This document shows, in pieces, positions 5,280-39,883 of a stretch of DNA of 49,079 bases (position 1 is the first letter of the stretch; each line of letters begins with the position of its first letter). This DNA comes from a virus. Both the position numbers and the translations under genes were made by a program. A model generated the notes under the pieces. It ran no database searches. It saw only the letters and a program-made list of their open reading frames with translations, and was not told where the DNA came from. The stretch is from the IMG/VR virus record IMGVR_UViG_3300045284_000227, positions 1 through 49,079 of that record. One strand, given 5' to 3'.

Positions 5280-6521
5280 CTATTGATAGGGTACGAGGGT
5301 GAATCCAGAGGTTGGGCGAATCCGCACGACATAGGGGCCGACCTGATAGGTCCGGAGCGTGGCCCCTTGTTCGTCGATGCGGGAGTAGGGTCCCAACGGG
5401 GCATCCGCCGGGTAGAAGTTCAGCGCACGCAACGCAGCGGCCGCGCAGATGGCTTCATCAGGCGTCGGCAGATGCCCGTATTTGCCGCTCTCGAAATGGA
5501 AGGTGCCGCCAGCGCCCAGCAGTGAGGCTGCACCGAAGTAGCCTTCCCAGTCTGCCGGCGTGCAGCCCCCGACATCTTCCAGCTTGGCGGGTTCGTCTGC
5601 TGTGGCTGGCTCATGGAAGGCTGGGTCCGTAGGCGCTCCCGGCCCGCCGCCTGACCAGTACTCCAAGAGGTCATGGGCACGGCGGGGCCATTCACCATCA
5701 CGCGGCGTATGTGGAGTTAAGTAAAGGCCGCGATGCCCTGTGATAGTCAGACCGTCTGTCCATAAAATAGCGGTCGCGGGAACGCGCAGCGCGGCTGGAT
5801 CAACTTTGTCGTGGACGCCAGGTTCGTTCACGAGCTCCACCAGGAGGTTGGCTTCACTGAAGCTGGCGAAGAAGTGGTCTACGAGGGCTTGCGCCTCACT
5901 GGGGGGCTTGTAGCCGGTGAACAGCACTTCTTCGACGTAGAAGCCTCGCTGGGCGACGTAGGCGAGGAATCCGTGGACGCAGTCGTCTGAGGCTTGCGGC
6001 CAGCCGGTTCCCGGCCATTCGACGTACAGGAACACGCGCAGGACGTTGAAGCCTTTGAAGGCGTCAAGGAATGGGGTAATGTCCTCCCCTTTGCAGAATC
6101 GGTCCTGTAGGCCAAACGCCGTGACCCCCTTCCAGCGCCACGCCTGACTATTCTGATAGAAGATTTTCCCGTTGGCGGTGAGCCTCGGAGTGGGAGGAGC
6201 AAGTCGCTGAAGAACGACAGCAATTCTTCGATGCCGATCAACGGCCACGCAATCGGTGGGCGCATAGGGATGGAATCCTTCGTGTTCTACGGTGAGCGTG
6301 TAGCACCCGGTGTGGACGGTGAAGTAGGCCCACCCGAAATCGTTCGCATCTTTGGCGACTCCCGCGAAGGTGACGTGACTCCCCGCCTGCAATTGCCCTG
6401 CGGGGTCGCTGATGCTGACCGAGAAATCCCAGGCGGGAGACTGAGGTGGCTTCGGCGGACCAATGGGACCACACGCATTGAGCGTAAGCAGCAACGCAAG
6501 AAGCGTAAGAAGTCGCCTCAT
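5280..6521 (-). CDS. Lipoprotein with (beta/alpha)8 glycoside-hydrolase-like domain
   Basis: 413 residues. The start MRRLLTLLALLLTLNAC is a lipoprotein signal peptide with lipobox LNAC (Cys17), so the product should be lipid-anchored outside the inner membrane. Residues about 30-108 look like an Ig or carboxypeptidase-regulatory-like beta domain. Residues about 115-400 resemble a clan-A glycosidase barrel, with VNEP at 231-234 as the likely acid/base Glu and a candidate nucleophile Glu in HFESG (344). The substrate is unknown. The ATG at 6521 overlaps the upstream gene by 4 bases. A lipid-anchored glycosidase encoded by a phage suggests surface-polysaccharide modification of the infected or lysogenic host. 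Confidence 0.7.
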   Translation of the reverse strand: MRRLLTLLALLLTLNACGPIGPPKPPQSPAWDFSVSISDPAGQLQAGSHVTFAGVAKDANDFGWAYFTVHTGCYTLTVEHEGFHPYAPTDCVAVDRHRRIAVVLQRLAPPTPRLTANGKIFYQNSQAWRWKGVTAFGLQDRFCKGEDITPFLDAFKGFNVLRVFLYVEWPGTGWPQASDDCVHGFLAYVAQRGFYVEEVLFTGYKPPSEAQALVDHFFASFSEANLLVELVNEPGVHDKVDPAALRVPATAILWTDGLTITGHRGLYLTPHTPRDGEWPRRAHDLLEYWSGGGPGAPTDPAFHEPATADEPAKLEDVGGCTPADWEGYFGAASLLGAGGTFHFESGKYGHLPTPDEAICAAAALRALNFYPADAPLGPYSRIDEQGATLRTYQVGPYVVRIRPTSGFTLVPYQ

Positions 6522-8104
6522 TGGAAGATGTCCTCTTGCACATGGCCGAACAGATCGAATAGCCCGTCCTCTCCGAAGTTCGCTGGCAAATCCTGCTTCT
6601 CGGTCCCGGTGCGAGCGGCCCATGCCTGCACGAGGACGTGATCGATGCACCACGAAGCCTCAGAGCAGAGGTCTGTCGCCATCACGATCACTTCGCTGAA
6701 ATAGGCGTCATCGGTCAGATGGGAGTAGCCGACGAGATACACGCCCAGCGGCACTTTGTAGTCGTCCGCATACTGCTTGGCAGTGCGGATGATGTCGTAG
6801 GCGTCTGTCCCGGCGCGATGCCAGTCCATGTCAATGTGCCAGCCATCGAGATGACAGCCCCAGGAATCGAGACCCATGAGGAACTTGCGTTGCGTCTCCA
6901 GATCAATCTCTGGGCAGGCCTCAGCCCAGACCACCTTGACTCCCGGCATCGCGGCTCTGGCAGCTTCCACAAACTTGACCACCGCAAAGACGCTCTCATC
7001 GAAGGGCTGCTCAGGACGTTGTTTCGCGGCGGTCAGCGGTTCGTCCATCGTGAGGTAGCAGACACGATGCCCCTTCGCCAGCACCCGCTGGGCCACGGTC
7101 GGCAAATCCCGGATGGCGTTCTCGGCGTGCCAGTCTCCGGGCTTAATGCTGCCCATCTCGATTCCAAGGTTCACGCCCTGCTGGCGAATCCCAGAGAGGG
7201 TGTCAACCTGCCCATAGCGGGCATCTTCCAAGATCCACTGCACGTAGAGGCCAAACACATCCACCGTGGCGAGGTCACCATGAATCGCGGCCGGCACATC
7301 GCTGTCAATGTTCGGATGCAGCCAGTAGCGTTCGCTGGTCTTGAGTGGCGGCAACGGCGGGACAGGGGTCGGCATAGGTGGCTTCGGCGGTTTGGGATCT
7401 GGCGGCTTCGGTGGTTCCGGCTTTGGCGGTTCAGGCGGGACCGGGACAGCCTCGAGCGGAAAGTCCGCGCCGCCAAGTTCGGACACGTCGAACCACAGCG
7501 CTTCTGCGTAGCCGGGTTTGACGAGATAGACACACACCGTAGTCCCGCTACGACGGACGCGAATGAAATAAACCTGCCCCGTCGAGAGGACGTATCGCTT
7601 GCCCTGCCACTCCGCGATGCAGCCGGTGTCACCCTGTCCGATTGTCAGATCACCGAAGTGTGACCACTCCCAGAGCGGACCAATCACCCCACATGCCTGC
7701 GCCCATGCCGTCCCGTGATTGACTGTCTGGTCCCCGGTGATCACCTCGCCTGAGTCCCCGACATACCGGAACCCCTGCGAGCCCATCGCCACCGTGGACA
7801 GCACCAGTTCTTGGCCGACATAGATCAGCGGGTTGATGCCATACGTGGCGTAGTATGGGACGGTCCATCCGCTGTCGTCGTACTGCACCGCCCAGCCAGA
7901 CTCATTCCCTTGTCCCGCCAGTTTCAGCGGCCCGGTATCCGTGACCCGGAGATACAGCGGCAGGTTGCGCGAGTCGAGCGGCAGGAGTTGCTGGTCGTTG
8001 ACCTGGACTCGCCAGCCCACACCCGGCACGTTGACCAGATACGCAAGCTGCTGATCGAGGCGGCAGTCGCCATACCAGGCGTTGTCCAGATGGCGGCGGA
8101 TCAC
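6518..8104 (-). CDS. Two-domain protein: beta domain, Pro-rich linker, TIM-barrel hydrolase-like domain
   Basis: 528 residues. Residues 1-215 are beta-rich, residues 221-254 are a Pro/Lys linker (PPKPEPPKPPDPKPPKPP), and residues 258-528 look like a glycosidase-type barrel with acidic residues in LTMDEP (Glu355) and WAEACPEID (Glu395). No signal peptide is seen. A tail-associated or capsule-degrading enzyme is one reading; an enzyme working with the lipoprotein next to it is another. The GTG start overlaps the stop of the upstream gene (GTGA). Confidence 0.6.
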   Translation of the reverse strand: MIRRHLDNAWYGDCRLDQQLAYLVNVPGVGWRVQVNDQQLLPLDSRNLPLYLRVTDTGPLKLAGQGNESGWAVQYDDSGWTVPYYATYGINPLIYVGQELVLSTVAMGSQGFRYVGDSGEVITGDQTVNHGTAWAQACGVIGPLWEWSHFGDLTIGQGDTGCIAEWQGKRYVLSTGQVYFIRVRRSGTTVCVYLVKPGYAEALWFDVSELGGADFPLEAVPVPPEPPKPEPPKPPDPKPPKPPMPTPVPPLPPLKTSERYWLHPNIDSDVPAAIHGDLATVDVFGLYVQWILEDARYGQVDTLSGIRQQGVNLGIEMGSIKPGDWHAENAIRDLPTVAQRVLAKGHRVCYLTMDEPLTAAKQRPEQPFDESVFAVVKFVEAARAAMPGVKVVWAEACPEIDLETQRKFLMGLDSWGCHLDGWHIDMDWHRAGTDAYDIIRTAKQYADDYKVPLGVYLVGYSHLTDDAYFSEVIVMATDLCSEASWCIDHVLVQAWAARTGTEKQDLPANFGEDGLFDLFGHVQEDIFQ

Positions 8105-8478: not shown

Positions 8479-8880
8479 ATGCCGTTTCCTAAAGGGAAAA
8501 AGAGTCCCAATACGCCCGGAAATCCCGCCTGGAAAAAAGGGGGGGCCAGCCCGAATCCCAAGGGACGCCCCCCTGTCGGGATGTCCCTGGCTGACCGCTG
8601 CCGCGCCGTAGCGGGAGACGGGACCAAGCTCGCCTGGCTCTATGCCTGTGTCGCCGGGCTCGCCCCGATTGACGCCGTCGAACAGCAATTCGCCTCGAGC
8701 GGCGTGGATTTCTCCATGCGGATTCGCCAGTTCCTCAAAGGGGCCTCCGTCAGGGACCGGCTCTATTGCGCGGCACGCCTCGAGGACCGGGCCTTCGGCC
8801 TCGTGAAACAGGAACACGAACACTCCGGGGAAGTGGGCATGGTGCCCGTCCGTGTCGTGCATGAATACCACTCCAGTTGA
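8479..8880 (+). CDS. Putative small terminase subunit (DUF5681-like N-terminus)
   Basis: 133 residues. The basic, Gly/Pro-rich N-terminus (KKSPNTPGNPAWKKGG, SPNPKGRPP) matches the pattern of DUF5681-like phage proteins commonly found immediately before large terminase genes. The rest is helical (LADRCRAVAGDG, MRIRQFLKGASVRDRL). Position directly before and overlapping the large subunit is the main reason to call it the DNA-recognition subunit. Confidence 0.6.
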   Translation: MPFPKGKKSPNTPGNPAWKKGGASPNPKGRPPVGMSLADRCRAVAGDGTKLAWLYACVAGLAPIDAVEQQFASSGVDFSMRIRQFLKGASVRDRLYCAARLEDRAFGLVKQEHEHSGEVGMVPVRVVHEYHSS

Positions 8881-10414
8881 TGCGCCTGAGCGCGAAGTGC
8901 GGATGGTATGGCGCGGCGTGGTCGCGGAGTTCCTGCGCGACACGACGAGACTCGTGGATTTCGAGGGAGCTTTTAGGGTCGGGAAAACAACGGCCGCGCT
9001 CTGGAAGGTCTTCAATTCGTGTGAAGCCAATCCGGGCATCCATTGGTTGATCTGCCGGTACTCGGATGGCGACACCCAAACGAAACTGAAACCACCATGG
9101 CGGACGGTCTGCGACCGGGCCGGGGTGAAGGTGCAATGGGACAGTTTGGAAATGTGCGACGTCTTTCCCAACGGCACAGACGATCCTGATGATCCCTACA
9201 AGGGCGGCTCTCGCGTCTACATCTTCGGCATCAAGTCACAGGACCAAACCTCGCGCTACGGCAAGCTCCGCGGCATGACCTTGGGTGGGATCTACAACGA
9301 CCAGACCGAAGAACTGCCGAAGGATGTGTTTCAGGAAATGATGGGCCGACTCTCGCAGCAGCATCAGCCGCATCAGTTGCTGCTGACGCCGAATCCTCCC
9401 GACGAAAACCACTGGCTCTGTACTGAGTTCCCGGAAGCCAACAATCTCAAGGACCGGAAGTATTACTCCGCGCCGATTCATGCGAACGCGCACAACCTCC
9501 CACCAGAAACCATACCGGGGTTGATTGCCGCGTATCCACCCTCGCACCCGAAGCACCGGTCTGCGGTGCTCGGGAAGCGCGGGTTGAATGTCATCGGCAA
9601 ACCGGTCTATGGCGGGGACCCTGAAAAAGGACTCGCTCCGATGTTCGTCCGGTCGCTGCATGTGCGACCGCTGACCTACAACCCGAATCTTCCTCTCCTG
9701 ACCGCGATCGATTTCGGCAAGCATCATCCCGCCGCTCTCTACTTTCAGTTCACCCCCTGGAACCAGTTGCTGTTTCTCGGGGGGCTGATGGGGCAGGACT
9801 TATACCTCGAGGACTTCGCCCCGCTCATCAAACGCTATCGCGCCGAGTGGTTTCCGCAGGCGTCCATCTATCTCGAGTGCTGCGACCCCGCGGGGTCTCA
9901 TGACAACTCGCAGGGCGTCCGCAATAACGGCATCAAGGTCTTGCAGGAACACGGCATTAATCCCATCTGGAAAGAACACAGCAACGCGCCGGATGTGCGA
10001 CTCGCGATGATCGAACGGCTCGCGAGCTATATGCGCAAGCGCACCCCGCAAGGCGAAGCGTTAGGCGTGGAAGCGGACGTCAACAAGTGGATGCTGATCT
10101 CGCTGGACATCGCCAAGCCGTGGCCGTTTCTCGCGGACGGATTCGAGGCGGGCTACGTGTGGGACGAGCACATGGTGTCCGTTGGTTCAAAGCCGATCCG
10201 GAAGGCGAAGAAGGACGGCTGGTATGAGCATGGGATGAACTGCGCGGAGTATGCGGAAATCAACTTCGGCGGGGCACAACCCAGTCAGCAACAAATGGAA
10301 CGACAAGTGGCCGCTCGACAGCAGGCCACACTCAGACGCGCACAACGAGACATCGACCCCTACGACCTTCGCTCGTATGGACACGCCGCACGCATGAAAC
10401 GAGGAGGCTACTAA
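8861..10414 (+). CDS. terL: Large terminase subunit (ATPase-nuclease)
   Basis: 517 residues. It is the packaging motor that pumps DNA through the portal and cuts it. Walker A is GAFRVGKT (36-43), Walker B with catalytic Glu is IYNDQTEE (144-151), and the coupling motif is LLLTPNPP (173-180). The RNase H-like nuclease domain has Asp in TAIDFGK (284) and in ECCDPAG (342), with a further Asp in LADGFEAGYVW. All expected motifs are present. ATG 8861 is used; GTG 8852 is also possible. It overlaps the small-subunit candidate by 20 bases and the next microgene by one base. Confidence 0.93.
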   Translation: MNTTPVDAPEREVRMVWRGVVAEFLRDTTRLVDFEGAFRVGKTTAALWKVFNSCEANPGIHWLICRYSDGDTQTKLKPPWRTVCDRAGVKVQWDSLEMCDVFPNGTDDPDDPYKGGSRVYIFGIKSQDQTSRYGKLRGMTLGGIYNDQTEELPKDVFQEMMGRLSQQHQPHQLLLTPNPPDENHWLCTEFPEANNLKDRKYYSAPIHANAHNLPPETIPGLIAAYPPSHPKHRSAVLGKRGLNVIGKPVYGGDPEKGLAPMFVRSLHVRPLTYNPNLPLLTAIDFGKHHPAALYFQFTPWNQLLFLGGLMGQDLYLEDFAPLIKRYRAEWFPQASIYLECCDPAGSHDNSQGVRNNGIKVLQEHGINPIWKEHSNAPDVRLAMIERLASYMRKRTPQGEALGVEADVNKWMLISLDIAKPWPFLADGFEAGYVWDEHMVSVGSKPIRKAKKDGWYEHGMNCAEYAEINFGGAQPSQQQMERQVAARQQATLRRAQRDIDPYDLRSYGHAARMKRGGY

Positions 10415-10513: not shown

Positions 10514-10645
10514 ATGTCACAGACCCGAGGCGTTCTGCCCGCGTTAACCGATAACGTCCGGAAGGCACCGAAGGTCCGTCCACTCCCCATTCGGAAATAT
10601 CTGCCGCCCCCGCCGGCTCCCAAAAAGAAACAGGCAGGCAGATGA
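10514..10645 (+). CDS. Basic Pro-rich microprotein
   Basis: 43 residues, basic and proline-rich (KYLPPPPAPKKKQ). It starts one base after the previous stop, and its TGA overlaps the portal ATG (ATGA), a configuration that strongly favours a translated gene. Function unknown. Confidence 0.55.
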   Translation: MSQTRGVLPALTDNVRKAPKVRPLPIRKYLPPPPAPKKKQAGR

Positions 10646-12564
10646 CACCACCCCGCAGTCCGTTCGATGTGAAACTCTCGGATGACCGCCGGCAGGAGTT
10701 TGTCCGCTGGCTCTCGGATGAAGTCCAGTCGGCATTGGACGCGAAGTCCGCGCAGGACCGCGAGGTGGACTACTGGCATCTGTTGTATGAACAGGGCCGG
10801 ACCCGTCTCGCCTCCTCCGCCCCGTGGCCTGGGGCCGCAGACCTGACCTCCTACCTCGGCACGCAGAACGTCGATGCGCTCCATGCGCGGTTGATGAAGA
10901 CGATCTGGGTGGAACCGGTCTGGACCGTGGAAGGCTTCGGTCCCGCCGCGCAGAATGCCCCGGTGGTCGAAGAACTGCATCAGTGGTGGGCGGAAGAAGA
11001 ACAGCTCCAATCGGTGCTGGACAAGCTCGGCCTCATCTCATTGATCGAACCACGCGGACTCCTCGAGGTGCGTGAAGGCACGCAGACGCGGACGGTTCGA
11101 AAGACCATCAGTGCCGCGATCGAGACAGACCCGATGGGCGGGCTGGTCTATGACGAGACCGGAGCCCCCAAACTGCTGCGCGATCCCGGCGGGACGATCC
11201 TGCCGGCGCAACCCGGCATGGCCGCCGCAGAGACCGTGGTCGATGTGGTGGAACCGGTCCGGACCGGACCGCAGTATCGGGTGATTCCGTATCGACATTC
11301 GGTGATCCTGCCGGGTCATGCGATGCACAAGGACGACATCTGGGGCTACGGGAAACTGTTTCGCCAGCGCATGCCCGACATTCAGAAGCTGGCCGATGAA
11401 GGGGTGTATGACAAGGATGCGGTCGCCTCGCTCAACCGGGTCGGGGACACGGAGCCGGACCCCGCCATGCAGCGAGCGAAGCAAGGGGTTGCGCCGCAAG
11501 AAGGCCCGACCGCCGAAAAAGAACTCTGGGAAGTGCTTGTGCTCTCGGATCTGGACGGTCGTGGCGAACGCTGGTATCTCGCCACCCTCCACATTGGTCA
11601 TCGTGTATTGCTCCGACTGCAGTATGACGACCTGGATCGGTCCCGTTTCGTTCCCGTCATCTTATTCCCCCGTCCAGATCGAGCGACCGAAGGGTTTTCC
11701 TGTATCGGCCATAAGCTGATCACGACCATCGAGGAGCACACCGCGATTCGCAACATGCGGGCGGACCGCGAAGCGATGATCGTGCAGGCTCCTATCAAGC
11801 GGCTCACCGGGGCCTTGTGGGACCCGCTCGAGCAACCCTTCGGCCCGTCCGCGGTCATCGACGTCCGCGACATGCGAGAAGTGGAACCCTTCCAGGTGCC
11901 GGATCTGCCGGCGACGATCATCCAGTGGGAGCAGACCTGTGAACGCACCGCCGAAAAGCTCATGGGCGTCAATGACATCGCCTCCGGGCAGACCCTGAAC
12001 GAGACAAAGACCTTAGGGGAAGTTCAGATGGCGACGGAGCAATCCTTCGTCCGCATGGACCTGGTCATCCGTCGATTCCAGGAGTCGCTGGAGGACTTGT
12101 TCCAGATTCGTCATGCGATCCGGAAGCGCATGCTGGCGGAACATCCGGAAGGCGTGGACGCGCCACAGTCGGTCATGACGGGCCTGGAAGCCCGCGGTGC
12201 CTCGATTGATGGCGGCAAGGTCACCGCGCAGATGCTGGAGGGGACGTTTCGCGGCAAGCCACGCGGGTCGGTCGAAACCGCCGACCCGAAGGCGCTCAGG
12301 AACGACCTGAACCAATTGCTGCAAGTCCTGCCGACGTTCCTGCAGCTCTCCCCGATGGTGGCGCAGTTCTTCGGGCCGCAAGCGGTCAGAGCCCTGCTCG
12401 ACCAGATTGTGCGGACGTATCGCATTCCCAATCGGCAGGCGTTTTTGGGTGGACCGGCGCAGCAGATGATGATGGGACCGGGGATGCCGCCCGGACCACC
12501 GACCATGGGGGGCCCGCCTCCGTTGCCGTTACCCGGGCCGATGGCGGCAACCCCGCCGCAATAG
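10642..12564 (+). CDS. Portal protein
   Basis: 640 residues, directly after the terminase genes. It would form the dodecameric DNA channel at one capsid vertex. N-terminal features are VDYWHLLYEQGRTRL and APWPGAADLTSYLG. The long central alpha/beta part contains a stem-like helix region (TIIQWEQTCERTAEKLMGV), and the C-terminus is Pro/Gly/Met-rich and probably disordered. Its size fits portals of short-tailed phages. Identification rests on gene order, size and these features. Confidence 0.85.
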   Translation: MTPPRSPFDVKLSDDRRQEFVRWLSDEVQSALDAKSAQDREVDYWHLLYEQGRTRLASSAPWPGAADLTSYLGTQNVDALHARLMKTIWVEPVWTVEGFGPAAQNAPVVEELHQWWAEEEQLQSVLDKLGLISLIEPRGLLEVREGTQTRTVRKTISAAIETDPMGGLVYDETGAPKLLRDPGGTILPAQPGMAAAETVVDVVEPVRTGPQYRVIPYRHSVILPGHAMHKDDIWGYGKLFRQRMPDIQKLADEGVYDKDAVASLNRVGDTEPDPAMQRAKQGVAPQEGPTAEKELWEVLVLSDLDGRGERWYLATLHIGHRVLLRLQYDDLDRSRFVPVILFPRPDRATEGFSCIGHKLITTIEEHTAIRNMRADREAMIVQAPIKRLTGALWDPLEQPFGPSAVIDVRDMREVEPFQVPDLPATIIQWEQTCERTAEKLMGVNDIASGQTLNETKTLGEVQMATEQSFVRMDLVIRRFQESLEDLFQIRHAIRKRMLAEHPEGVDAPQSVMTGLEARGASIDGGKVTAQMLEGTFRGKPRGSVETADPKALRNDLNQLLQVLPTFLQLSPMVAQFFGPQAVRALLDQIVRTYRIPNRQAFLGGPAQQMMMGPGMPPGPPTMGGPPPLPLPGPMAATPPQ

Positions 12565-13253: not shown

Positions 13254-13546
13254 TGGCGAGTGAACAAGAAGACCTTGACCAGTTTGTGCAGTCGGCCGGC
13301 TGGCTGCGCTTTTGTCGGCACGCGGAGGAGGAATGGAACGACCGCTTCCAGCAGCATGTCCGCACCGCCATCAATGATGCCGATGACGTCGCGGCCCTCC
13401 GAAAGCTCCAACAGGTGACGGTCGCAAAGGATGCGGTGGAGCGATTGCTGAAATGGCCGCAGGAACGCCTCCAACAATTAGCCATGATGACGGGGTCCTT
13501 TGTGGACCCGATGGAACAACCTCTTTCACGACGAGGCCGCTTGTGA
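13253..13546 (+). CDS. Hypothetical head-operon protein
   Basis: 97 residues starting MASEQEDLDQFVQS, helical and charged. The start overlaps the methyltransferase stop (TAATG), and its own stop overlaps the GroES-like start (GTGA). The family is not recognised; its place between portal and scaffold suggests a role in the head. Confidence 0.6.
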   Translation: MASEQEDLDQFVQSAGWLRFCRHAEEEWNDRFQQHVRTAINDADDVAALRKLQQVTVAKDAVERLLKWPQERLQQLAMMTGSFVDPMEQPLSRRGRL

Positions 13547-13845
13547 TTACCCCGCTTGGTGACCGGATTCTGATTCGCCCTGAACCACTCCCAACTGAAA
13601 CCGAGAGCGGCCTGCACCTCGTGGAGCATCGCAAGCCCGAGACGATGGGCGAAGTGGTCACGGTCCCGGAGCGGATCGCGACCGACTGCCCGGAATGCGG
13701 GTCGCACATCTTCCATGTGCCGGCGGTGAAGCCGGGGGATACGGTCGTGTTCTCGTGGACGAGTGGACAGGAACTCTTGATTGATGACCAGCGGTATCTA
13801 TTGATGCGCGAGTCGGATCTGCTCGCCGTCCTTGAAGGAGTGTAA
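13543..13845 (+). CDS. GroES-like co-chaperonin with a Cys/His insert
   Basis: 100 residues. The start ITPLGDRILIRPE is the canonical GroES opening. Residues 17-32 correspond to the mobile loop that contacts GroEL (ESGLHLVE for the usual GGI-V/L pattern). The end (LLMRESDLLAVLEGV) matches the family end closely. Between them, the roof region is replaced by DCPECGSHIFHV (Cys49, Cys52, His55, His58), which could bind zinc. By analogy with T4 gp31, it would pair with host GroEL to fold a capsid protein. The GTG start at 13543 overlaps the previous stop; a longer in-frame reading is rejected. Confidence 0.85.
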   Translation: MITPLGDRILIRPEPLPTETESGLHLVEHRKPETMGEVVTVPERIATDCPECGSHIFHVPAVKPGDTVVFSWTSGQELLIDDQRYLLMRESDLLAVLEGV

Positions 13846-14688
13846 ATGGCAGACCTCGAAGCCCCCGACCCCGCACCTGAGCCGACCCCGGAGCCTGAAC
13901 CGGTTGCCGTCGCACCCGCCGACCCCATGGAGGCGGAACCCGAAGGCACCACTGAAGTGGAAGGGGCGAAACACGTCCCATTGGGGCACCTGATTAATGA
14001 ACGCCGCGAAAAGGCCGCGCTGAAACAGAAGGCGGACCAGTTCGACCAACTCGCCGGCTACGTCAATCAGGTCAAGCCCTATATCGAATTTCTGCAGGCG
14101 AACCCCAACCTGATCAGCCAGACCCGACAGGAGCCCACTCCGGTCACCCCGACACAACCGGTGGATGAAGAATCCGCCGAGCTCGCGAGGACGCTGGACC
14201 TCTATACGTCGGACGGGCAACCCGATGTCAAGCGAGCGCAGAAACTGATCGATCGCGTGGACAAGATTGCCGGGACCCGTGCGCAAGCCGAGGTCAAGCC
14301 GCTACAGGACAGCACGCAGCGGGAACGGGCGCAGTACAGCTATCAGCGGGCACTGGTGACCAAGACCCCGGATGGTCGAGCGCCAGACCGCGCCATCCTG
14401 GATGAACTCTGGCGGCGGACCCCGGACCATATCAAGGCCACCGAGGAAGGAGCCTCAGGCATCTGGGCGCTGGCGTTGGGATTCTCCGAAGGACAGGGTC
14501 GTACCCCGGTTCCACCACAAGCCAGCCCCGTGCTGCATACGGAACCGCCTGGAGGCCGGACGCCGAATCGTGCGCCGCTGTCGGCGCTGGAAGAAAAGAT
14601 CGCGAAGATTCGCGGTCTGAGTGAGAAGGACTATCACGAACGCACCAAGGGCTACACGCCCGGTCGCGTCAATGTGTTGGAGGACTAG
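13846..14688 (+). CDS. Putative capsid scaffolding protein
   Basis: 280 residues. The first 45 residues are acidic and Pro-rich. A helical, charged middle follows (INERREKAALKQKADQFDQL), then a helical C-terminus (SALEEKIAKIRGLSEKDY). This composition, the lack of a fold motif and the position between portal and further head genes fit a scaffold. The capsid gene itself is far away on the other strand. Assignment is by inference only. Confidence 0.55.
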   Translation: MADLEAPDPAPEPTPEPEPVAVAPADPMEAEPEGTTEVEGAKHVPLGHLINERREKAALKQKADQFDQLAGYVNQVKPYIEFLQANPNLISQTRQEPTPVTPTQPVDEESAELARTLDLYTSDGQPDVKRAQKLIDRVDKIAGTRAQAEVKPLQDSTQRERAQYSYQRALVTKTPDGRAPDRAILDELWRRTPDHIKATEEGASGIWALALGFSEGQGRTPVPPQASPVLHTEPPGGRTPNRAPLSALEEKIAKIRGLSEKDYHERTKGYTPGRVNVLED

Positions 14689-15197
14689 TGGCACCCAAAA
14701 CAGAAGCGAAGAAGAAGCCCCGCGTCTCCGTGCTCGAGCGCCGGCTACAGAACCCCTTCGGGGAACCGAGCAGTCCGATTGACCTCACCGACCCGGCGAT
14801 GGTCGCGAGAGGCTTCAACAAGGCGGTCGGGTCCCAGCAGATTTACAAGGCGAAGCGCAACGGCTGGGATTTCGTCACCCCCGACATGATTGCGGATGTC
14901 GATCAGGCCGGCGGGTATCGACCCTCGACGGATGGGCAGCGGATGGTCCGGGGCGAGCGGGAAGAAGAAGTCCTGATGTACATGCCCAAGTCCGACCGCG
15001 AGCAGATCGAACTGGCGAAGGCGAAGAAGAATGTCCGTGACATGCAGATGGGACGGCAGAAGGAAGCCGTGCTGCAGGCGGCGGCGACCCAATTCGGCGG
15101 ACAGGCGTCGGACTATTTGAACGGGCGCATTGTCGGCACGGTCACCGACCAGATCGAGCGGATTCATTCGGACGCCAACCCGGATGAGCATCTGTAA
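14688..15197 (+). CDS. Hypothetical virion-associated protein
   Basis: 169 residues with a Lys-rich start (APKTEAKKKPRVS) and a long charged helix (KSDREQIELAKAKKNVRDM). The GTG start overlaps the scaffold stop by one base. Function unknown; co-expression with head genes suggests a head or assembly role. Confidence 0.6.
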   Translation: MAPKTEAKKKPRVSVLERRLQNPFGEPSSPIDLTDPAMVARGFNKAVGSQQIYKAKRNGWDFVTPDMIADVDQAGGYRPSTDGQRMVRGEREEEVLMYMPKSDREQIELAKAKKNVRDMQMGRQKEAVLQAAATQFGGQASDYLNGRIVGTVTDQIERIHSDANPDEHL

Positions 15198-16260
15198 TCT
15201 GGATCATTTCGCGGAGTCCTATTGGGACCCGCGGCGGCATGTCCTGGTGGGCGGGGCGTTCGATCCGCTCCATGAAGGACATCTGGCGTATTTCGAGGAG
15301 GCGCGGAAGCTGGGACCTTTGGTGTGCGCGGTTAGCCCAGACCGGACCGTGGTAGCGAAAGGAAAGATTCCGTGCCTCCCGGAAGCGACGCGAGTCAAAG
15401 TGTTGAATGCGTGCTCGCTGGTGGAGCATGTGACGCTGGCTGCAGACAAAGCCGCAGTCATTCGGGCATTGAAGCCGAAGGCGTATGTCATCGGCTCGGA
15501 CTGGGTGACCGCCTTTCCCGACGAGGAGAAGCAAGCCTGCCTCGATGTCACCGCGCGTGTCGTGTTTGCCAGTTGCCGCGAGAACTCCTCCACTGCGCTG
15601 CTCGCCGATTACGAGCGGAGACGCAACGCGGAGAAGTTGGCGGCATTTGAAACATTCGTGCAGCAGCAGAAGCCAGCCGAGAAACCATGGGAGCCGGTGC
15701 TGGATTACTCATGGGAAGCGCGGAAGGTGGTCGAGGGACCGCACGCGCAGTTGATTAAGGATACGTTTCAGCCGTCCTCGGTGTTGGATGCTGGCTGTGG
15801 TTCTCAGGCTCATCTCGTTCACATGCTCAGAGATATTGGAGTCGAGGCGCTAGGCTTTGATACCAACACCGAGAACGGCGAAGCAGTCTTCCGCTTTAGC
15901 ATTCTTCACGAAGACCCACTGAACGAGTGTGGCGCCGATCCAAACGGACTCGATCCGAGCGACCTCGTCATCTGCCGCGAAGTCTTGGAGCACCTGACCG
16001 TCAGGCAATTGGCTGTCGCGGTGCGGAACCTCGTGAAGCTGTCGAGCAAATATGTCTACGTTACTACGCGCTTTACTGCGCATCCGCACATCTACGATGT
16101 GTCTGGGTCTGATGATCTTGATCCTACTCACATCACGATGCTGAATCAGGATTTCCTGCGCAGCCTGTTTGTGCTGGAAGGCTGTACACGCCGAGCAGAC
16201 CTTGAACAGAAGCTGGACTGGCAGAAGAAGTCTCGCGTGCTGGTCTACCAAGTGCCATGA
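15184..16260 (+). CDS. Cytidylyltransferase-methyltransferase fusion
   Basis: 358 residues. Residues about 18-150 are a small nucleotidyltransferase of the TagD/GCT/RfaE type: GGAFDPLHEGHL (HxGH at 30-33) and the late ENSSTALL motif. It would transfer a nucleotide to a sugar or polyol phosphate. Residues about 195-358 are a class I methyltransferase: SVLDAGCGSQAHL (200-211) and CREVLEHL. The two halves are joined by a charged linker (151-180). ATG 15184 overlaps the previous gene by 14 bases; the frame continues upstream but inside that gene. Joined activation and methylation suggest a modified nucleotide-sugar. Substrates are unknown. Confidence 0.75.
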   Translation: MSICNLDHFAESYWDPRRHVLVGGAFDPLHEGHLAYFEEARKLGPLVCAVSPDRTVVAKGKIPCLPEATRVKVLNACSLVEHVTLAADKAAVIRALKPKAYVIGSDWVTAFPDEEKQACLDVTARVVFASCRENSSTALLADYERRRNAEKLAAFETFVQQQKPAEKPWEPVLDYSWEARKVVEGPHAQLIKDTFQPSSVLDAGCGSQAHLVHMLRDIGVEALGFDTNTENGEAVFRFSILHEDPLNECGADPNGLDPSDLVICREVLEHLTVRQLAVAVRNLVKLSSKYVYVTTRFTAHPHIYDVSGSDDLDPTHITMLNQDFLRSLFVLEGCTRRADLEQKLDWQKKSRVLVYQVP

Positions 16261-16370
16261 CGTGGACTGATTACTTTTACTGCTTTCTGCTGGTGGTCTT
16301 TCAGGTCTTAGCCGAGGGCTGGCTGGATGAGTGGCGGGATCGTCGCCATGCGAGGCGCAGCCGTGATTGA
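16257..16370 (+). CDS. Membrane microprotein
   Basis: A 37-residue ORF with one hydrophobic segment (YFYCFLLVVFQVLAEGWL) and a basic Arg-rich tail. Its ATG overlaps the fusion enzyme's stop (ATGA), and it fills the gap before the glycosyltransferase-like gene, overlapping it slightly. It could anchor an enzyme to the membrane or be chance; the overlap pattern favours a gene. Confidence 0.45.
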   Translation: MTWTDYFYCFLLVVFQVLAEGWLDEWRDRRHARRSRD

Positions 16371-17085
16371 TGCGGTGCTCTCGTATCATATGAACCCGCA
16401 GACGTGTGGTGTGGCGAAGTTCAATCATGCGCTGGCGAAGCGGCTGGGCGTGCCGTGTCTGCCGCTGGCTGATACATTCAACGGACATGCACTGGTATCC
16501 ATTAAAGCCAGCGAGATAGGGCGCGGATGGGAGCATGCCATCCCTGAAATGTGTACATTGCTTCTACATGACCGCCCAGCCATGACCATGTGCGGGCGTC
16601 CAAGACGATGGCTCTATGCCGATGAACTCGGCTGCCCCTCCACCATCGACGGCAACCCCACACGCGGAGCCTATCGCGTGCTCGTGTTCGGGATGGCGCA
16701 CAAGCTGAACCTGCCACACTTTGAACAACTGAAGGCGCAACTCGATGAAGCACACCCGGACTACACGATCGAACTCTCGACCGCGGTCCATGAAGGCACC
16801 CCGTGGGACGAGGCGCTTACGGAGTCTGTCGCTGCCATGCGGCGCATCTACGGTGACAAGCTCCGAGTGCTTGGTTTCCTCGGTGATGACGCTCTCGCCA
16901 AAACACTTCAAGAAGTTGATGCGGTTGCGGCTTATTTCGTTCCTGCTCTGAGAGCGAACAACACCACCTATTGGGCCGCTGTTGACGCCGGCAAGACCAT
17001 CTACACCAACCGAGATGAACACTCCCCGAAAGACACCGACCCGCCCGCGTCGTGGGACCGCCTCGTGGAGTTGATCCGTGCGTGA
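16348..17085 (+). CDS. Glycosyltransferase-like protein (GT-B type, putative)
   Basis: About 245 residues. The opening VLSYHMNPQTCGVAKFNHAL resembles the start of GT4-like glycosyltransferases (a Gly-rich loop after the first strand). Later parts (YRVLVFGMAHKLNLP, KLRVLGFLGDD, VDAVAAYFVPALRANNTTYWAA) fit a Rossmann-like second domain, but the protein is shorter than a full GT-B enzyme. It could transfer a sugar in the downstream pathway. Start candidates are ATG 16348 and GTG 16363. Confidence 0.55.
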   Translation: MRGAAVIDAVLSYHMNPQTCGVAKFNHALAKRLGVPCLPLADTFNGHALVSIKASEIGRGWEHAIPEMCTLLLHDRPAMTMCGRPRRWLYADELGCPSTIDGNPTRGAYRVLVFGMAHKLNLPHFEQLKAQLDEAHPDYTIELSTAVHEGTPWDEALTESVAAMRRIYGDKLRVLGFLGDDALAKTLQEVDAVAAYFVPALRANNTTYWAAVDAGKTIYTNRDEHSPKDTDPPASWDRLVELIRA

Positions 17086-18136
17086 GTTGTTCATCGACGA
17101 GCGCCGGATTGCGGACGACGAGCCCTGTTACGTGGTGGCGGAACTCGGTCACAACCACGGCGGGAGTTTCGACACCGCCAAGGGCATGATCCATGCCGCG
17201 GCAGACTCTGGAGCGCATGCGGTCAAGCTGCAGAAGCGCGACAATCAGACCCTCTACAGCAAAGCCCTGCTGGATCAGGTCTACGACAACGAGAACAGCT
17301 ACGGCCCCACCTACGGCGCACATCGGGAAGCCTTAGAACTCTCGCTGGACGATCTGCAGAAACTGCAGGGGCTGTCCCGGTGGCGTCAGGTGACGTGCTT
17401 CGCTACGGCCTTTGACGAACCCTCCGCAGATGTGCTCGTGGGCTTGGGCATGCCAGCGTTCAAACTCGCATCAGGCGCGTTGACGGATCTGGACCTGATC
17501 AAGTATGTCGGCCAGTTCAAGAAACCGATCATCTTGTCCACCGGGGGCGGGGCGTATCGCGAGGTGGATGCCGCAGTAGATGTGCTGACCGGGACCGGCG
17601 CACCGTTTGCGCTGCTCCATGCGACGGCGGCGTATCCCTGCCAGTTCCCCGAGTTGAACCTGAAGTGCATTCCGGTGATGCGCGAGCGGTATCCGGACAT
17701 CGTCATCGGCTGGTCGGCACATGTCCACAATCTCTCGATGATGCTGCAGGCCCACGCCTATGGAGCCAGAATCATCGAGTGCCACTTCACGTTAAATCGG
17801 TCCATGAAGGGGACGGACCATGCCTTCAGTCTGGAACCCGCCACGCTCCGGAAACTCTGCAAAGACCTGGAGCGAGCGCATCAGGCGGCGGGCGATGGCG
17901 TCAAGGTCTATTACGAGAGCGAACGCAAACCTATTTCCAAGATGCGCCGTCGTCAGACTCCTGACGGACTCCGCATCACAGGAGCCCTCGATGGTCTTGC
18001 TGGAGAAACTACAGCAACGGATTCTGGAGCGCGAGTGGGGACAGGAAGTCTTCATTGTGGAGTCCCCGAACTATCTCGGCAAGATTCTCCACATGAGAAA
18101 AGGCACGAAAGGCGGTCTGCAATATCACGCCGATAA
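17078..18136 (+). CDS. neuB: NeuB-family nonulosonic acid synthase, without SAF domain
   Basis: 352 residues as read. The family condenses phosphoenolpyruvate with an N-acetyl-hexosamine derivative to give sialic, legionaminic or pseudaminic acid. Visible motifs: VVAELGHNHGGSFDTAKGMI (Glu22), AVKLQKRD (Lys50), KLASGALTDLDLI, LLHATAAYP, GWSAHVHN (His215), IIECHFTLN (Glu234, His236) and GTDHAFSLEP (Asp247). The two His match the metal ligands of the meningococcal enzyme. Deviations are an Ala in the GYSDH-type motif and a Cys for Lys in EKHFTL. The barrel ends near residue 290; the last 48 residues overlap the cupin gene and do not resemble the usual C-terminal SAF domain. GGAG lies 7 bases before the GTG start. 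Confidence 0.85.
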   Translation: MRELFIDERRIADDEPCYVVAELGHNHGGSFDTAKGMIHAAADSGAHAVKLQKRDNQTLYSKALLDQVYDNENSYGPTYGAHREALELSLDDLQKLQGLSRWRQVTCFATAFDEPSADVLVGLGMPAFKLASGALTDLDLIKYVGQFKKPIILSTGGGAYREVDAAVDVLTGTGAPFALLHATAAYPCQFPELNLKCIPVMRERYPDIVIGWSAHVHNLSMMLQAHAYGARIIECHFTLNRSMKGTDHAFSLEPATLRKLCKDLERAHQAAGDGVKVYYESERKPISKMRRRQTPDGLRITGALDGLAGETTATDSGARVGTGSLHCGVPELSRQDSPHEKRHERRSAISRR

Positions 18137-18380
18137 GGATGAAGCGTTCTATCTCATCGAGGGCGCGGCCGTGGTCCGGACAGACGCAGGGCAGGGGCTG
18201 ATCGAACTCACCATGAATCCAGGCGAAGGCTTTCGGATTCCACCGGGGGCGATTCATCAGGTCGAGGCAGTCAGCGACTGTACGCTGATTGAGTGGAGCA
18301 CACCACATTACGACGACCGCGTGCATGTGGAGTCTCGGTATGGACTGCCAGAGGCCGGCGGGTTGCCGACCACCAGATGA
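17991..18380 (+). CDS. Cupin sugar-epimerase/isomerase-like protein
   Basis: 129 residues, a single cupin barrel. The start (REWGQEVFIVESPNYLGKIL) and motif 1 (QYHADKDEAFYLIEG) are like small cupins of legionaminic/pseudaminic acid loci and the cupin part of mannose-6-phosphate isomerases. Motif 2 is PGEGFRIPPGAIHQVEA. It probably binds a metal and a sugar or nucleotide-sugar. The start at 17991 lies 146 bases inside the NeuB reading frame; the well-conserved N-terminus shows that this overlap is real. Confidence 0.75.
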   Translation: MVLLEKLQQRILEREWGQEVFIVESPNYLGKILHMRKGTKGGLQYHADKDEAFYLIEGAAVVRTDAGQGLIELTMNPGEGFRIPPGAIHQVEAVSDCTLIEWSTPHYDDRVHVESRYGLPEAGGLPTTR

Positions 18381-19096
18381 ACATCGTCGCCCTGATTCCC
18401 GCTCGCGGTGGCAGCAAGCGCATCCCTCGCAAGAACATCAAGCTGTTGGGTGGGAAGCCGCTGATTCAGTGGACGATTGAAGCCGCGCAGCAGGGTCATC
18501 TGTTCTCAGATATTCTCGTTCCCACGGATGACAAGGAGACGACTGACATCGTCTATCGTTTAGGAGCGAAGGCTGCGTATCGGCCAAACTCCAGCGACGC
18601 TGAGCCTGACATTGTGTGGGTGCATGCGGTACTGCATTACATCGTCGCCGATGCCATTGCCATTCTACGCCCCACGTCGCCGTTCCGTGATGCGGACACC
18701 ATACGAGCCGCCGTGCAGCGTTTCAACGACTGGCAACCGGCTGACTCGTTGCGATTCGTCAGGCGTGTAAACGAACACCCCGGCAAAATGTGGTCGGTGC
18801 AGCGAGGCGAGCGCATGACGCCAATCCTGCCGCTCTGGACTCGCACAGGGAACGACTCCACAGACACGCCGTGGCACAGCGCCCCCACGCAAACGCTTCC
18901 AATGTTTTACGTCCAGACCGCCGGCATGGAAATCGTCTGGACAAAGGTTGTGCGCGAGACGAACACCATTAGCGGCGCGACCGTGATTCCTTTTGAAGTG
19001 TCAGGGTGGCCTGCGCTCGACATCAACACACCGGAGGACTGGGACCGTGCGGAACGCCATGTGGCCGATCTACAAGCGGCTGCTTCAACGCAGTAA
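18377..19096 (+). CDS. neuA: CMP-nonulosonate cytidylyltransferase (NeuA/PseF/LegF type)
   Basis: 239 residues, the usual length. The start VALIPARGGSKRIPRKNI is the CTP-binding signature of CMP-sialic acid synthetases. Further motifs are VPTDDKETTDIV, AILRPTSPFRDADTI and the metal-binding WPALDINTPEDWDRAE near the end. It would activate the NeuB product with CTP to CMP-sugar, the donor for glycosyltransferases. The ATG overlaps the cupin stop (ATGA), so the two are co-translated. Confidence 0.88.
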   Translation: MNIVALIPARGGSKRIPRKNIKLLGGKPLIQWTIEAAQQGHLFSDILVPTDDKETTDIVYRLGAKAAYRPNSSDAEPDIVWVHAVLHYIVADAIAILRPTSPFRDADTIRAAVQRFNDWQPADSLRFVRRVNEHPGKMWSVQRGERMTPILPLWTRTGNDSTDTPWHSAPTQTLPMFYVQTAGMEIVWTKVVRETNTISGATVIPFEVSGWPALDINTPEDWDRAERHVADLQAAASTQ

Positions 19097-20129
19097 CAAG
19101 CCGATTCTCGTCGGCCCATTCACATCAGAAATCGGCTTCGAGTCGCTGTACTGGGTGCCCTTTGTCCAGTCCCTCGGCATCGACCCCTCCCGGCTGATTC
19201 CCATCACGCGAGGCGGGGCCGCGGTCTGGTATGGCGCACCCCACGGCATTGAACTCTACGATCTGCGCGACCCGAAAGATGTCCGCATCGAGAACATGGT
19301 ACAGCATGCACGCACCGGCCTGCTCAAGCAGACACGCGTCACCGCATTTGACCGGTCGCTTCTGAAGGATGCGGCCAAGGCCGCGGGGTTGACGTCGTAT
19401 CACGTCCTCCACCCATCCTGGATGTATCAGACCCTCGCCCCGTTCTGGGAGGGGCGCGTCGGGCTGGACTGGATTCTGTCGCGGCTGACCGTGGAACAGA
19501 CGGTCAATGGCGTCTCTCAGCGGGCCATTGCCAACCTGCGCGTGTTGCCGTTACCGGAGACTGTGAAACTCCCGGCAAACTTCTGCGCGGCCCGGTTCTA
19601 TTTCCGTTCAACGTTTCCGCACTCCCAGGTGACACTGGATTGTGCGCGGGAATGCCTCAAGCAGATTGCCCAGAACCAGCCGGTCGTCCTGCTCAACCCT
19701 GACGTGCATGCAGACGAGCATGTGGATGTCCCGGTGAAGGACATTCCCAACGTCTTCAAGCTAAGTGATTTTATGAAGACCGCGCCGCGGGATAATCTGG
19801 CGATCCAATCTGCGGTGCTGGCGAAATCGACGGGATTTGTCGGGACCTACGGAGGATTGGCGCAGCTCGCGCTCCGGTTGGGAAAGCCATCGGTCAGCTT
19901 CTATTGGGACTGGAAAGGCACCTCACTCGCGCACAAGCACCTGTCGGAAGCCCTCAGTCTGAACACCGGGATCGCCTTCCTGACCTTGCGCCTGACCGAT
20001 ATTCCCCTGCTCAAGACGGTGGCTCCGAATCTGTCGTTCCAGACGTCGAGCAGTCAGGGTGGTCTGCAGCAAAGCGGGACCCAGCAGCCAGCGCCACAGC
20101 CGTCTCACGAGGAAGGAATCCTATCGTAG
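19059..20129 (+). CDS. Putative glycosyltransferase (GT-B-like), last gene of the sugar module
   Basis: About 356 residues. The N-terminal segment KPILVGPFTSEIGFESLYWV and the C-terminal segment STGFVGTYGGLAQLALRLGKPSVSFYWDW are typical of the two Rossmann-like halves of GT-B enzymes; the second resembles the donor-binding region. Being directly after the CMP-sugar synthetase, it is the best candidate for the nonulosonic acid transferase, though this is inference. The C-terminal 30 residues are Gln/Ser-rich. The start (ATG 19059) overlaps the end of the NeuA gene by 38 bases. Confidence 0.6.
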   Translation: MWPIYKRLLQRSNKPILVGPFTSEIGFESLYWVPFVQSLGIDPSRLIPITRGGAAVWYGAPHGIELYDLRDPKDVRIENMVQHARTGLLKQTRVTAFDRSLLKDAAKAAGLTSYHVLHPSWMYQTLAPFWEGRVGLDWILSRLTVEQTVNGVSQRAIANLRVLPLPETVKLPANFCAARFYFRSTFPHSQVTLDCARECLKQIAQNQPVVLLNPDVHADEHVDVPVKDIPNVFKLSDFMKTAPRDNLAIQSAVLAKSTGFVGTYGGLAQLALRLGKPSVSFYWDWKGTSLAHKHLSEALSLNTGIAFLTLRLTDIPLLKTVAPNLSFQTSSSQGGLQQSGTQQPAPQPSHEEGILS

Positions 20130-27812: not shown

Positions 27813-28676
27813 TCAGGCTCCGATCTGCAGTCGCGCCATCGACTGCCGGGTGTCTTCCATCGCCGCTTCCAGATACTGCAACTCGTGATGCAGCGTCGTG
27901 GTCGAACAGAGACGTGTCGACGTCTGTCCCTGCGCGTCCGGCTCCTCGAGTGTCACCAGCGGGTTCCACCACGGACGCTTCTGCAGCGCCTGGGATTTCC
28001 GCTGATGCTTCAACTGCAGCTTGTGCATCTCCCACTTCAGCGGCTCGAGATACGCATTCGGGCGCGTCTGATACGCATACTGGAAGTTGCTCTGCAGAAT
28101 CGGGGCATCTTCCGGGAGCACCACCAAGGCATCCTGTGTCTCGTAGCGCCGCAGCCCTTGATGCGTGGAGGTCTTCATCGTCCCGTTCCCTAAGACCCGC
28201 CCGATCAGATACTCGAAATTCGGGCGCTGCTCGATGTATTCATGCTCCGTCGCCAGATGAATCCCGTAGATGTGAATCTCTTTGGCCCCGCGCTGAATGG
28301 CATGCGCGAGCATCCACGCCGGCGTGCTCGTCATGTAGCGACCGAACGCGGCTTCAATCGCATCCTTGGGAAACTTGCGGGCATGTCGCCAGTCCGCCGG
28401 CGGGTCTTCATGGAGCCAGAGCGGAATCGAGAGCTGCGACATCCACGCGACGTGATCGTCCGGCCGCGCATAATGCCCGGGCGGAATCTGGTGCGCAAAG
28501 ACGTGTTTCCCCTGCGCATAGAAAAACTTGGACATCGGGTGGATGTCATACCACTCATCCGCTCGAGGCCAGCCCAGTCGATAGGCGTCATTGAGGCCGA
28601 GAATTTTCAGCCCGGGATCATTCCACGGCGTCAGCTTCCAACTCTGTGCCGTGCCGACAATCGCAACTCGCTGCAT
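27813..28676 (-). CDS. Rossmann-like hypothetical phage protein
   Basis: 287 residues. The start RVAIVGTAQSWKLTPWND has a beta-strand/Gly-loop pattern, followed by KILGLNDAYRLGWPRADEWYD and GAKEIHIYGIHLAT, together suggesting a nucleotide- or sugar-binding alpha/beta fold. The C-terminal third is helical. It sits among tail and internal proteins and overlaps the previous stop by one base. Function unknown; an enzyme acting on virion glycans would be a guess. Confidence 0.5.
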   Translation of the reverse strand: MQRVAIVGTAQSWKLTPWNDPGLKILGLNDAYRLGWPRADEWYDIHPMSKFFYAQGKHVFAHQIPPGHYARPDDHVAWMSQLSIPLWLHEDPPADWRHARKFPKDAIEAAFGRYMTSTPAWMLAHAIQRGAKEIHIYGIHLATEHEYIEQRPNFEYLIGRVLGNGTMKTSTHQGLRRYETQDALVVLPEDAPILQSNFQYAYQTRPNAYLEPLKWEMHKLQLKHQRKSQALQKRPWWNPLVTLEEPDAQGQTSTRLCSTTTLHHELQYLEAAMEDTRQSMARLQIGA

Positions 28677-38962: not shown

Positions 38963-39883
38963 TTACGCGCCTGCTGTCCCGTACGCACCCACCCAGGTCC
39001 AGGCACCCACGGAGAACCGATGCCGCGTGGTGAAGATGCGATTCTTCGTCCGCGGGTCGATTGCCATGGGGTCGGTCGAGATAGGCACCCGGCGGTAGAA
39101 CGTCAGCCCATGCTGGGCCTTGTTCCCCGCCATCACAAACCACGCATCGTTGTCGGTCAGCCGCGGATTCACGATGAGATTCCACGTCCGGCGCGACTTG
39201 ATGGGGTTGCGGTCGTTGTCCGCCGACCCCGGGAGGCCGACGCTGTTCAGGAGCCGGTCCGCCAGGAACTCGAGGGCGGGCGGGACAATCAGGTTGAGCG
39301 AGGTGACCGGAGCCGCCAGGTGGCCGGCCTCGTCCTTCTGGTCGGTCTGCAAGTCAATCAGGGCCTGCGTGAGCGACGTCGCGGACAGGTCCGCATCGGT
39401 TGAGGGCCGGTTCTTGGCGGTGCCGCCCCCCTTGAGGAGGTGCGCCGTGTTGAACAGACTAACCCCATCGGGGGTCTGCTCGGAGGTGAACCCGTTGTTC
39501 AGGACATTGGCCGCTCGGCCTTCCTCGACATACCGTGCCGAGAATGCGAGCCAGTCGCCAGCCCCGTTCAGGATGTTCTCCGGATCGTCCTCCAGCGCGG
39601 TCTGCGTCACCTCGAAGCCGAGGCCGTTTTCCGTGTGGGTGAAATCCTTCGTCCAGCCCTGTCGCAGGGTGTCCATCACAAACGCATCGCCTTCCGGCTT
39701 GCTCTGGGTGTCCCCAAAGGGCACGTAGGTGACGATGCGCTCAAACTTGCGGTCTGACGTCCGGATGTTGAAGTACTCCGGGTAGATCCGCACCAGCTCC
39801 TTCAGTCGATCCTTCATGATCGAGTAGAAGGTTTTGTCAATATTGTCGTAAAGATCAGGATTCGTGCCGCGTGTCTGTGCCAT
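38963..39883 (-). CDS. Major capsid protein
   Basis: 306 residues, the right size for an HK97-fold capsid subunit. Recognisable features: a helical, charged start (NIDKTFYSIMKDRLKELVRI), an N-arm/E-loop region with FERIVTYVPFGDTQSKPEGD, the segment DGVSLFNTAHLLKGGGTAKN and an end with ARRTWNL-type strands (SRRTWNLIVNPRLTDNDAWF, RFSVGAWTWVG). The pattern resembles Mu-like and related capsid proteins. It follows the decoration-like gene by 12 bases. Confidence 0.85.
   Translation of the reverse strand: MAQTRGTNPDLYDNIDKTFYSIMKDRLKELVRIYPEYFNIRTSDRKFERIVTYVPFGDTQSKPEGDAFVMDTLRQGWTKDFTHTENGLGFEVTQTALEDDPENILNGAGDWLAFSARYVEEGRAANVLNNGFTSEQTPDGVSLFNTAHLLKGGGTAKNRPSTDADLSATSLTQALIDLQTDQKDEAGHLAAPVTSLNLIVPPALEFLADRLLNSVGLPGSADNDRNPIKSRRTWNLIVNPRLTDNDAWFVMAGNKAQHGLTFYRRVPISTDPMAIDPRTKNRIFTTRHRFSVGAWTWVGAYGTAGA

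Follow-up and report, generated by a model that had tools for sequence, protein, structure and literature searches.

What is a set of sugar-synthesis genes doing among the head genes of a phage? The question is raised by virus record IMGVR_UViG_3300045284_000227, which was analyzed over its whole length of 49,079 bases (hereafter the window) and which carries a six-gene block at 15184-20129 on the plus strand. Our best reading, to which we give about an even chance, is that the block derives from a bacterial surface-glycan operon as a pared-down phage copy, that its products synthesize an ulosonic (sialic-acid-like) sugar, activate it, and attach it, that it is expressed with the head genes, and that the sugar decorates the virion. 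The six genes are as follows.

15184-16260, plus strand: cytidylyltransferase-methyltransferase (CTMT), an HldE/TagD-like nucleotidyltransferase domain fused to a methyltransferase domain (PF01467, TIGR02199, Methyltransf_23)
16327-17085, plus strand: g16327, a short GT-B-like putative glycosyltransferase (AlphaFold2 model; true start perhaps 16363)
17078-18136, plus strand: NeuB-type phosphoenolpyruvate (PEP) condensing synthase without a SAF domain (GTG start; PF03102)
17991-18380, plus strand: small cupin, type II mannose-6-phosphate-isomerase/oxalate-decarboxylase-like (PF07883, PF01050, phrog_7851)
18377-19096, plus strand: NeuA/PseF-like CMP-ulosonate synthetase (PF02348, TIGR03584; ATGA overlap with the cupin stop)
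19059-20129, plus strand: g19059, a GT9-like glycosyltransferase (AlphaFold2 model, GT9 structure matches)

An earlier note, made from the sequence alone, had named the same six genes, and the list proved correct: four are backed by family matches and two by their AlphaFold2 folds. It was also right that synthesis, activation, and transfer steps for an ulosonic acid are all represented in a virion-gene operon.

A block kept with head genes

The NeuB of the window has 12 close relatives in the viral collection (44 by a wider profile), and mapping with hidden Markov models placed the gene block in the same order in about 28 phage loci. When the window was compared with the sister contig L094, the ratio of nonsynonymous to synonymous substitution rates (dN/dS) was 0.02-0.37 for all block genes, and all six are under purifying selection. 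These ratios, together with retention of the block in some 28 related loci, establish that it is real and not a product of chance. The earlier note had proposed a search of related phages, counting absence from close relatives against its reading; the gene order is kept in those relatives.

A search anchored on the capsid gene, and so independent of NeuB, yielded 29 loci, 25 of them with enough upstream sequence to be informative. Directly upstream of the capsid operon, 21 of these 25 carry a homolog of g19059, the gene that ends the block. The other four (L141-L144) have capsids like that of the window (84-97% identity) and lack the block at that place; L141 belongs to the same contig as L094, whose block is seen, and L142-L144 were judged at the capsid place only. 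The block stands at other sites in L113, L130, and L108, still adjoining packaging or head genes. L138, a contig from a metagenome-assembled genome (MAG) of the order of L050 with a capsid of 56% identity, has the scaffold, g14688, g398, and capsid genes contiguous without the block, and is apparently an empty site in a distant relative. In the window phage, unlike most of its relatives, the capsid gene lies far from the block, as the coordinates of the surrounding virion genes show.

8852-10414, plus strand: terminase large subunit, TerL (phrog_2, 1.4e-12)
10642-12564, plus strand: SU10-like portal protein (PF23899, 1e-15)
13453-13845, plus strand: GroES-like co-chaperonin (PF00166, 4.9e-14), kept in relatives between portal and scaffold
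13846-14688, plus strand: putative scaffold, located in relatives after GroES and before the block, with no family match
38963-39883, minus strand: major capsid protein (phrog_133/4523/371), 30-38% identical to annotated podovirus capsids

The same-strand order 5' of the block is terminase, SU10-like portal, methyltransferase, GroES, and putative scaffold. The earlier note had described block and head genes as joined throughout by stop-start overlaps, which holds at the ATGA where NeuA overlaps the cupin stop but not at every joint: TerL and the portal gene are 227 nucleotides apart, NeuB and the cupin overlap by 146 nucleotides, and the CTMT stop at 16260 is separated from g16327, whose start is at least 16327. 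That gap is filled by a 37-codon open reading frame (16257-16370, plus strand) that begins MTWTDYFYCFLLVVFQVLAEGW, bridges CTMT and g16327, and has a membrane-like stretch; of the relatives checked, L094 alone shares it. In the overlap, the last ~48 NeuB codons run in a different frame from the cupin. The NeuB frame is open through 17991-18136 (plus strand) in the window and L094 and stops earlier in relatives, so the long overlap probably reflects a lost stop codon.

NeuA itself is 55% identical between the window (18377-19096) and L094 (11431-12150), set against 98% for the flanking cupin and 100% for g19059, and dS is also raised in CTMT, g16327, and NeuB. The divergence of NeuA between near-identical neighbors, with this rise in dS, suggests allele swapping inside the block.

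The block-bearing lineage consists of little-known environmental phages almost absent from the GenBank phages, among which we found three distant NeuB matches only (27-34%), no g16327, one terminase match at 26%, and capsids 30-38% identical to those of podoviruses such as Pelagibacter phage HTVC023P. When the capsid protein was used to search genomes for a host, the results were a 56% match in a MAG contig assigned to the same order as L050 (Acidobacteriota) and two weak matches, with no firm host.

Predicted enzymes and their bacterial counterparts

CTMT matches PF01467 (1.5e-14), TIGR02199 (58 bits), and Methyltransf_23 (2.8e-9), and its profile matches ethanolamine-phosphate and glycerol-3-phosphate cytidylyltransferases in the PDB; homologs lie 5' of NeuB in both phages and Acidobacteriota. 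It may activate or methylate a partner sugar, providing a nucleotide form of that sugar and methylation. The cupin (Cupin_2, PF07883, 2.7e-9; PF01050, 3.4e-5; phrog_7851, 6e-18) is the neighbor of NeuB at almost every phage locus but at none of the cellular loci in the set, and it probably prepares or edits the sugar. NeuA is a clear member of PF02348 (9.5e-21; 75 bits versus a cutoff of 22.6) and matches the PseF model TIGR03584 at 8.5e-30, under the equivalog cutoff (104 against 205.7). Searched by profile against the PDB, it is nearer to NeuA, matching CMP-Neu5Ac synthetase at 1.1e-34 and KdsB at 6e-13, and it would be expected to form the CMP-sugar. PHROGs held no match for the window NeuB or NeuA.

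Neither g16327 nor g19059 matched any Pfam family, and the case for them rests on AlphaFold2 models with mean pLDDT confidence scores of 92.3 and 87.3, respectively. In g16327, which has residues invariant across 34 homologs, only the C-terminal nucleotide-sugar half (residues 97-241) matches GT-B chains, among them HMW1C/NGT (Z 11.5) and also GT4. The g19059 model matches GT9 enzymes over its full length (3tov, Z 13.4 over 257 residues at a root mean square deviation of 4.9; WaaF, 13.0; WaaC, 12.4; TibC, 10.3); its sequence match to GT9 is weak, at 13.6 bits to TIGR02193 only, and there was no PDB profile match. Protein glycosyltransferases (HMW1C/NGT and TibC) are thus among the structural matches of both models, and the two GT-B-type proteins would transfer sugars. 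No strong membrane segment was found in any of the six block proteins; averaged over 19 residues, their hydropathy peaks at 1.97.

The nearest cellular NeuB proteins come from 80 loci (44-55% identity) in Acidobacteriota, Chloroflexota, Desulfobacterota, Cyanobacteria, Actinobacteria, and others. A g16327 homolog lies directly 5' of NeuB in 25 of the cellular loci, nearly all from Acidobacteriota, and most of those 25 with contigs reaching far enough hold HldE-MT (the nucleotidyltransferase-methyltransferase), g163, NeuB, and NeuA in the phage order. The cellular operons continue beyond NeuB with a short-chain dehydrogenase/reductase (SDR), an aldehyde dehydrogenase (ALDH), NeuA, and a transketolase; relatives of the three extra enzymes occur in 64 (SDR), 63 (ALDH), and 48 (transketolase) of the 80 loci. 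The likeness of the Acidobacteriota-type operon HldE-MT/g163/NeuB/SDR/ALDH/NeuA/transketolase (as in L048, L050, and L069) to the phage block therefore lies in the core gene order and the g19059 domain, whereas the cells keep the SAF domain and the three extra enzymes, have no cupin, and usually fuse the g19059 domain, present in many of their operons, to a GT2 domain. In phages g19059 is kept after NeuA.

SDR, ALDH, and transketolase were not found in the window, and most phages of the lineage also lack them. An intermediate, L116, still has an SDR and a piece of transketolase at the cellular positions, which is why the phage block looks pared down, and L118 has both SDR and transketolase. 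The simplest reading of these gene contents is one old acquisition from a bacterial surface-sugar operon, followed by pruning.

The comparison also exposes the cellular operon itself. An arrangement of NeuB (KSP type), SDR, ALDH, NeuA, and transketolase is widespread (L048, L050, L069, L025, and others) in Acidobacteriota and other groups and probably makes an ulosonic acid; we found no paper on this transketolase-bearing operon in the open literature, subscription papers not being covered.

A NeuB without its SAF domain, and the sugar it may make

The window NeuB belongs to the NeuB/LegI/PseI family by its PF03102 TIM-barrel domain (7.9e-67; 225.7 bits against a cutoff of 22.1), its catalytic and metal-binding residues, and the CMP-synthetase gene nearby. 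Residues E25, K53, Q55, T110, F112, K129, Y186, S213, H215, E234, H236, and D247 (meningococcal numbering) are all invariant in the phage NeuB alignment, their roles being taken partly from PMC6795526 and otherwise from general knowledge of the family. The protein would condense PEP with an aldose supplied by the host. It differs from characterized members in scoring under the NnaB/PseI equivalog cutoffs (220 against 399.65 for TIGR03569; 192.6 against 340.25 for PseI, TIGR03586), in falling in a phage clade of its own, and in lacking the SAF (antifreeze-like) domain and with it any equivalent of Arg314.

The TIGR03569 match ends at position 278 of 329, and neither the whole window, in any frame, nor the remaining SAF-less loci gave a SAF match. 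The SAF-less phage clade around the window NeuB shares instead a short conserved tail, KMRR-x-x-TPDG-x-x-ITG. A sequencing frameshift can be ruled out as the source of the missing domain, as 25 divergent phage NeuB proteins end alike with no SAF in any frame. Among cellular NeuB loci, 79 of 80 have the domain, and the remaining locus is cut by a contig end.

In a first tree, a weakly supported branch placed the SAF-bearing phage proteins L106 and L112 among the SAF-less ones. In a second tree, for which the outgroups were broadened and the phage rows reduced, the SAF-less phage NeuB proteins formed one clade (support 96) that excluded the SAF-bearing phage proteins (L106/L112, L009, and L114), which fits a single loss of SAF, probably within the phage lineage. 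The loss is not peculiar to phages, because short cellular NeuB proteins from Chloroflexota and Acidobacteriota (L182, L191, L208, and others), which resemble the window NeuB in their ~290 amino acids and missing SAF, form a separate clade (support 99) at 33-39% identity to it and represent an independent loss. The comparison of phage and cellular NeuB is in effect a natural experiment on the purpose of the SAF domain.

As for the product, a CMP-activated ulosonic acid is likely. The earlier note had gone further, proposing a sialic-type sugar derived from hexosamines and fed by host UDP-sugar pathways. Arg314, which lies in the SAF domain of the meningococcal enzyme, contacts N-acetylmannosamine (ManNAc), and the R314A mutant is inactive (PMC6795526). 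All 78 cellular relatives scored have Ser at this position, the phage enzyme lacks the whole domain, and the cellular operons carry other enzymes (SDR, ALDH, and transketolase), while for the most part this NeuB has no NeuC-family or aminotransferase gene next to it in the genomes checked. A hexosamine-fed sialic sugar is therefore doubtful and supply from host UDP-sugars unproven; perhaps the precursor is not an ordinary UDP-GlcNAc-derived hexosamine.

A rival to a sialic-acid pathway proper, which we consider a serious possibility somewhat short of even, is that this NeuB joins PEP to an aldose that is shorter or has no amino group. The ulosonic acid used by NeuA and the transferases would then have no acetamido group (a KDN-like sugar, for example). 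The loss of SAF in the phage clade, the Ser in the cellular relatives, and the transketolase, ALDH, and SDR of their operons all point this way. So does the distribution of NeuC-family genes, which are absent in two of five genomes checked and on another contig than NeuB in two Acidobacteriota genomes (in one of which the match is below the family cutoff), although some genomes are fragmented and such absence is weak evidence. On the other side, an Anaerolineales genome has a NeuC-family gene ~6 kb from this NeuB on the same contig, where it adjoins a second NeuB; the phage NeuA resembles CMP-Neu5Ac synthetases more than it does KdsB; and NnaB and PseI rank best among the NeuB profiles. Human NANS likewise has no Arg at the site aligned to Arg314, so the residue at this position does not by itself settle the substrate. 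A non-acetamido sugar would fit either of the targets considered below.

Where the sugar would go

If the block works as its families predict, the most likely acceptor would be a virion protein in the cytoplasm, because the block stays with head genes and moves with them and because no flippase, polymerase, or lipid-carrier/export gene was found among its six genes. The transferases also look soluble, and with the head linkage and the missing export genes this leads us to prefer decoration of the virion over that of the host surface. Such a coat would shield the particle or adjust how it binds to hosts or surfaces.

Several points weigh against virion decoration. It is drawn from gene content and position; adjacency to head genes demonstrates linkage and suggests timing, not the acceptor, and in the lineage of the window the capsid operon stands apart from the block. 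The cellular homologs presumably act on cell-surface glycans. In addition, since R314A is inactive and SAF is normally needed to place ManNAc (PMC6795526), the phage NeuB may catalyze something else.

The second target to consider is the host surface, altered during infection by ulosonic acid placed on host glycans via host export genes, with superinfection exclusion or receptor change as the result. This we regard as unlikely, if not negligibly so. Cellular homologs do share their loci with GT2/GT4 enzymes, a composition also seen in surface-glycan loci, and there is a precedent in the phage-encoded O-acetyltransferases that modify nonulosonic acids of Acinetobacter capsules (PMC6586298). Those too are phage genes acting on ulosonic acid chemistry, but as described there each is a single modifying enzyme directed at the host capsule. 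The block, by comparison, is linked to head genes and has no export or lipid-carrier gene, a partial scan of the genes showed no lysogeny gene, and a late change of surface has little time to act.

DNA glycosylation occurs in some phages, and CMP-sugars are nucleotides; nevertheless, a role in nucleic-acid or free-nucleotide chemistry (such as DNA hypermodification), or none at all as passengers, is very improbable given purifying selection on the block, its near-universal retention in the lineage, and its lack of DNA-modification genes.

The closest parallel to virion decoration is found in mycobacteriophages such as Maravista, whose glycosyltransferases are inferred to modify the capsid (PMC11256854). 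In both systems virion protein is the presumed target of glycosyltransferases that the phage encodes; what sets the present block apart is that it also carries genes for making and activating the sugar. Searches of the open literature, subscription papers again not being covered, turned up no description of a phage-encoded NeuB/NeuA cassette, and one paper on a Bacillus megaterium phage proved to be a false hit. If virion decoration is correct, some phages have genes of their own to make, activate, and transfer an acidic sugar that coats their particles, and virion glycosylation would be a heritable core trait of the phage, not borrowed host chemistry. The fullest version goes further: by means of a single-domain NeuB, an uncultivated phage lineage would build a CMP-activated ulosonic acid not described before and probably non-acetamido, and the capsid or tail proteins of these phages would carry it, as a trait close to the core of the lineage. 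We offer this version tentatively and think it less probable than its alternatives combined.

Two observations elsewhere in the window deserve mention. A protein encoded at 27813-28676 (minus strand) belongs to a family with further phage members close to more distantly related NeuB genes (L118, L120, L126, and L122); its by-eye likeness to CMP-sialyltransferase GT42 or Maf/MptE was unsupported (PF01973 at an E value of 0.24 in one member; no PDB match) and serves as a lead only. Two large minus-strand proteins without family matches, at 5280-8104, adjoin the terminase genes and are possible tail or receptor proteins; the one at 5280-6653 has a weak match in L012.

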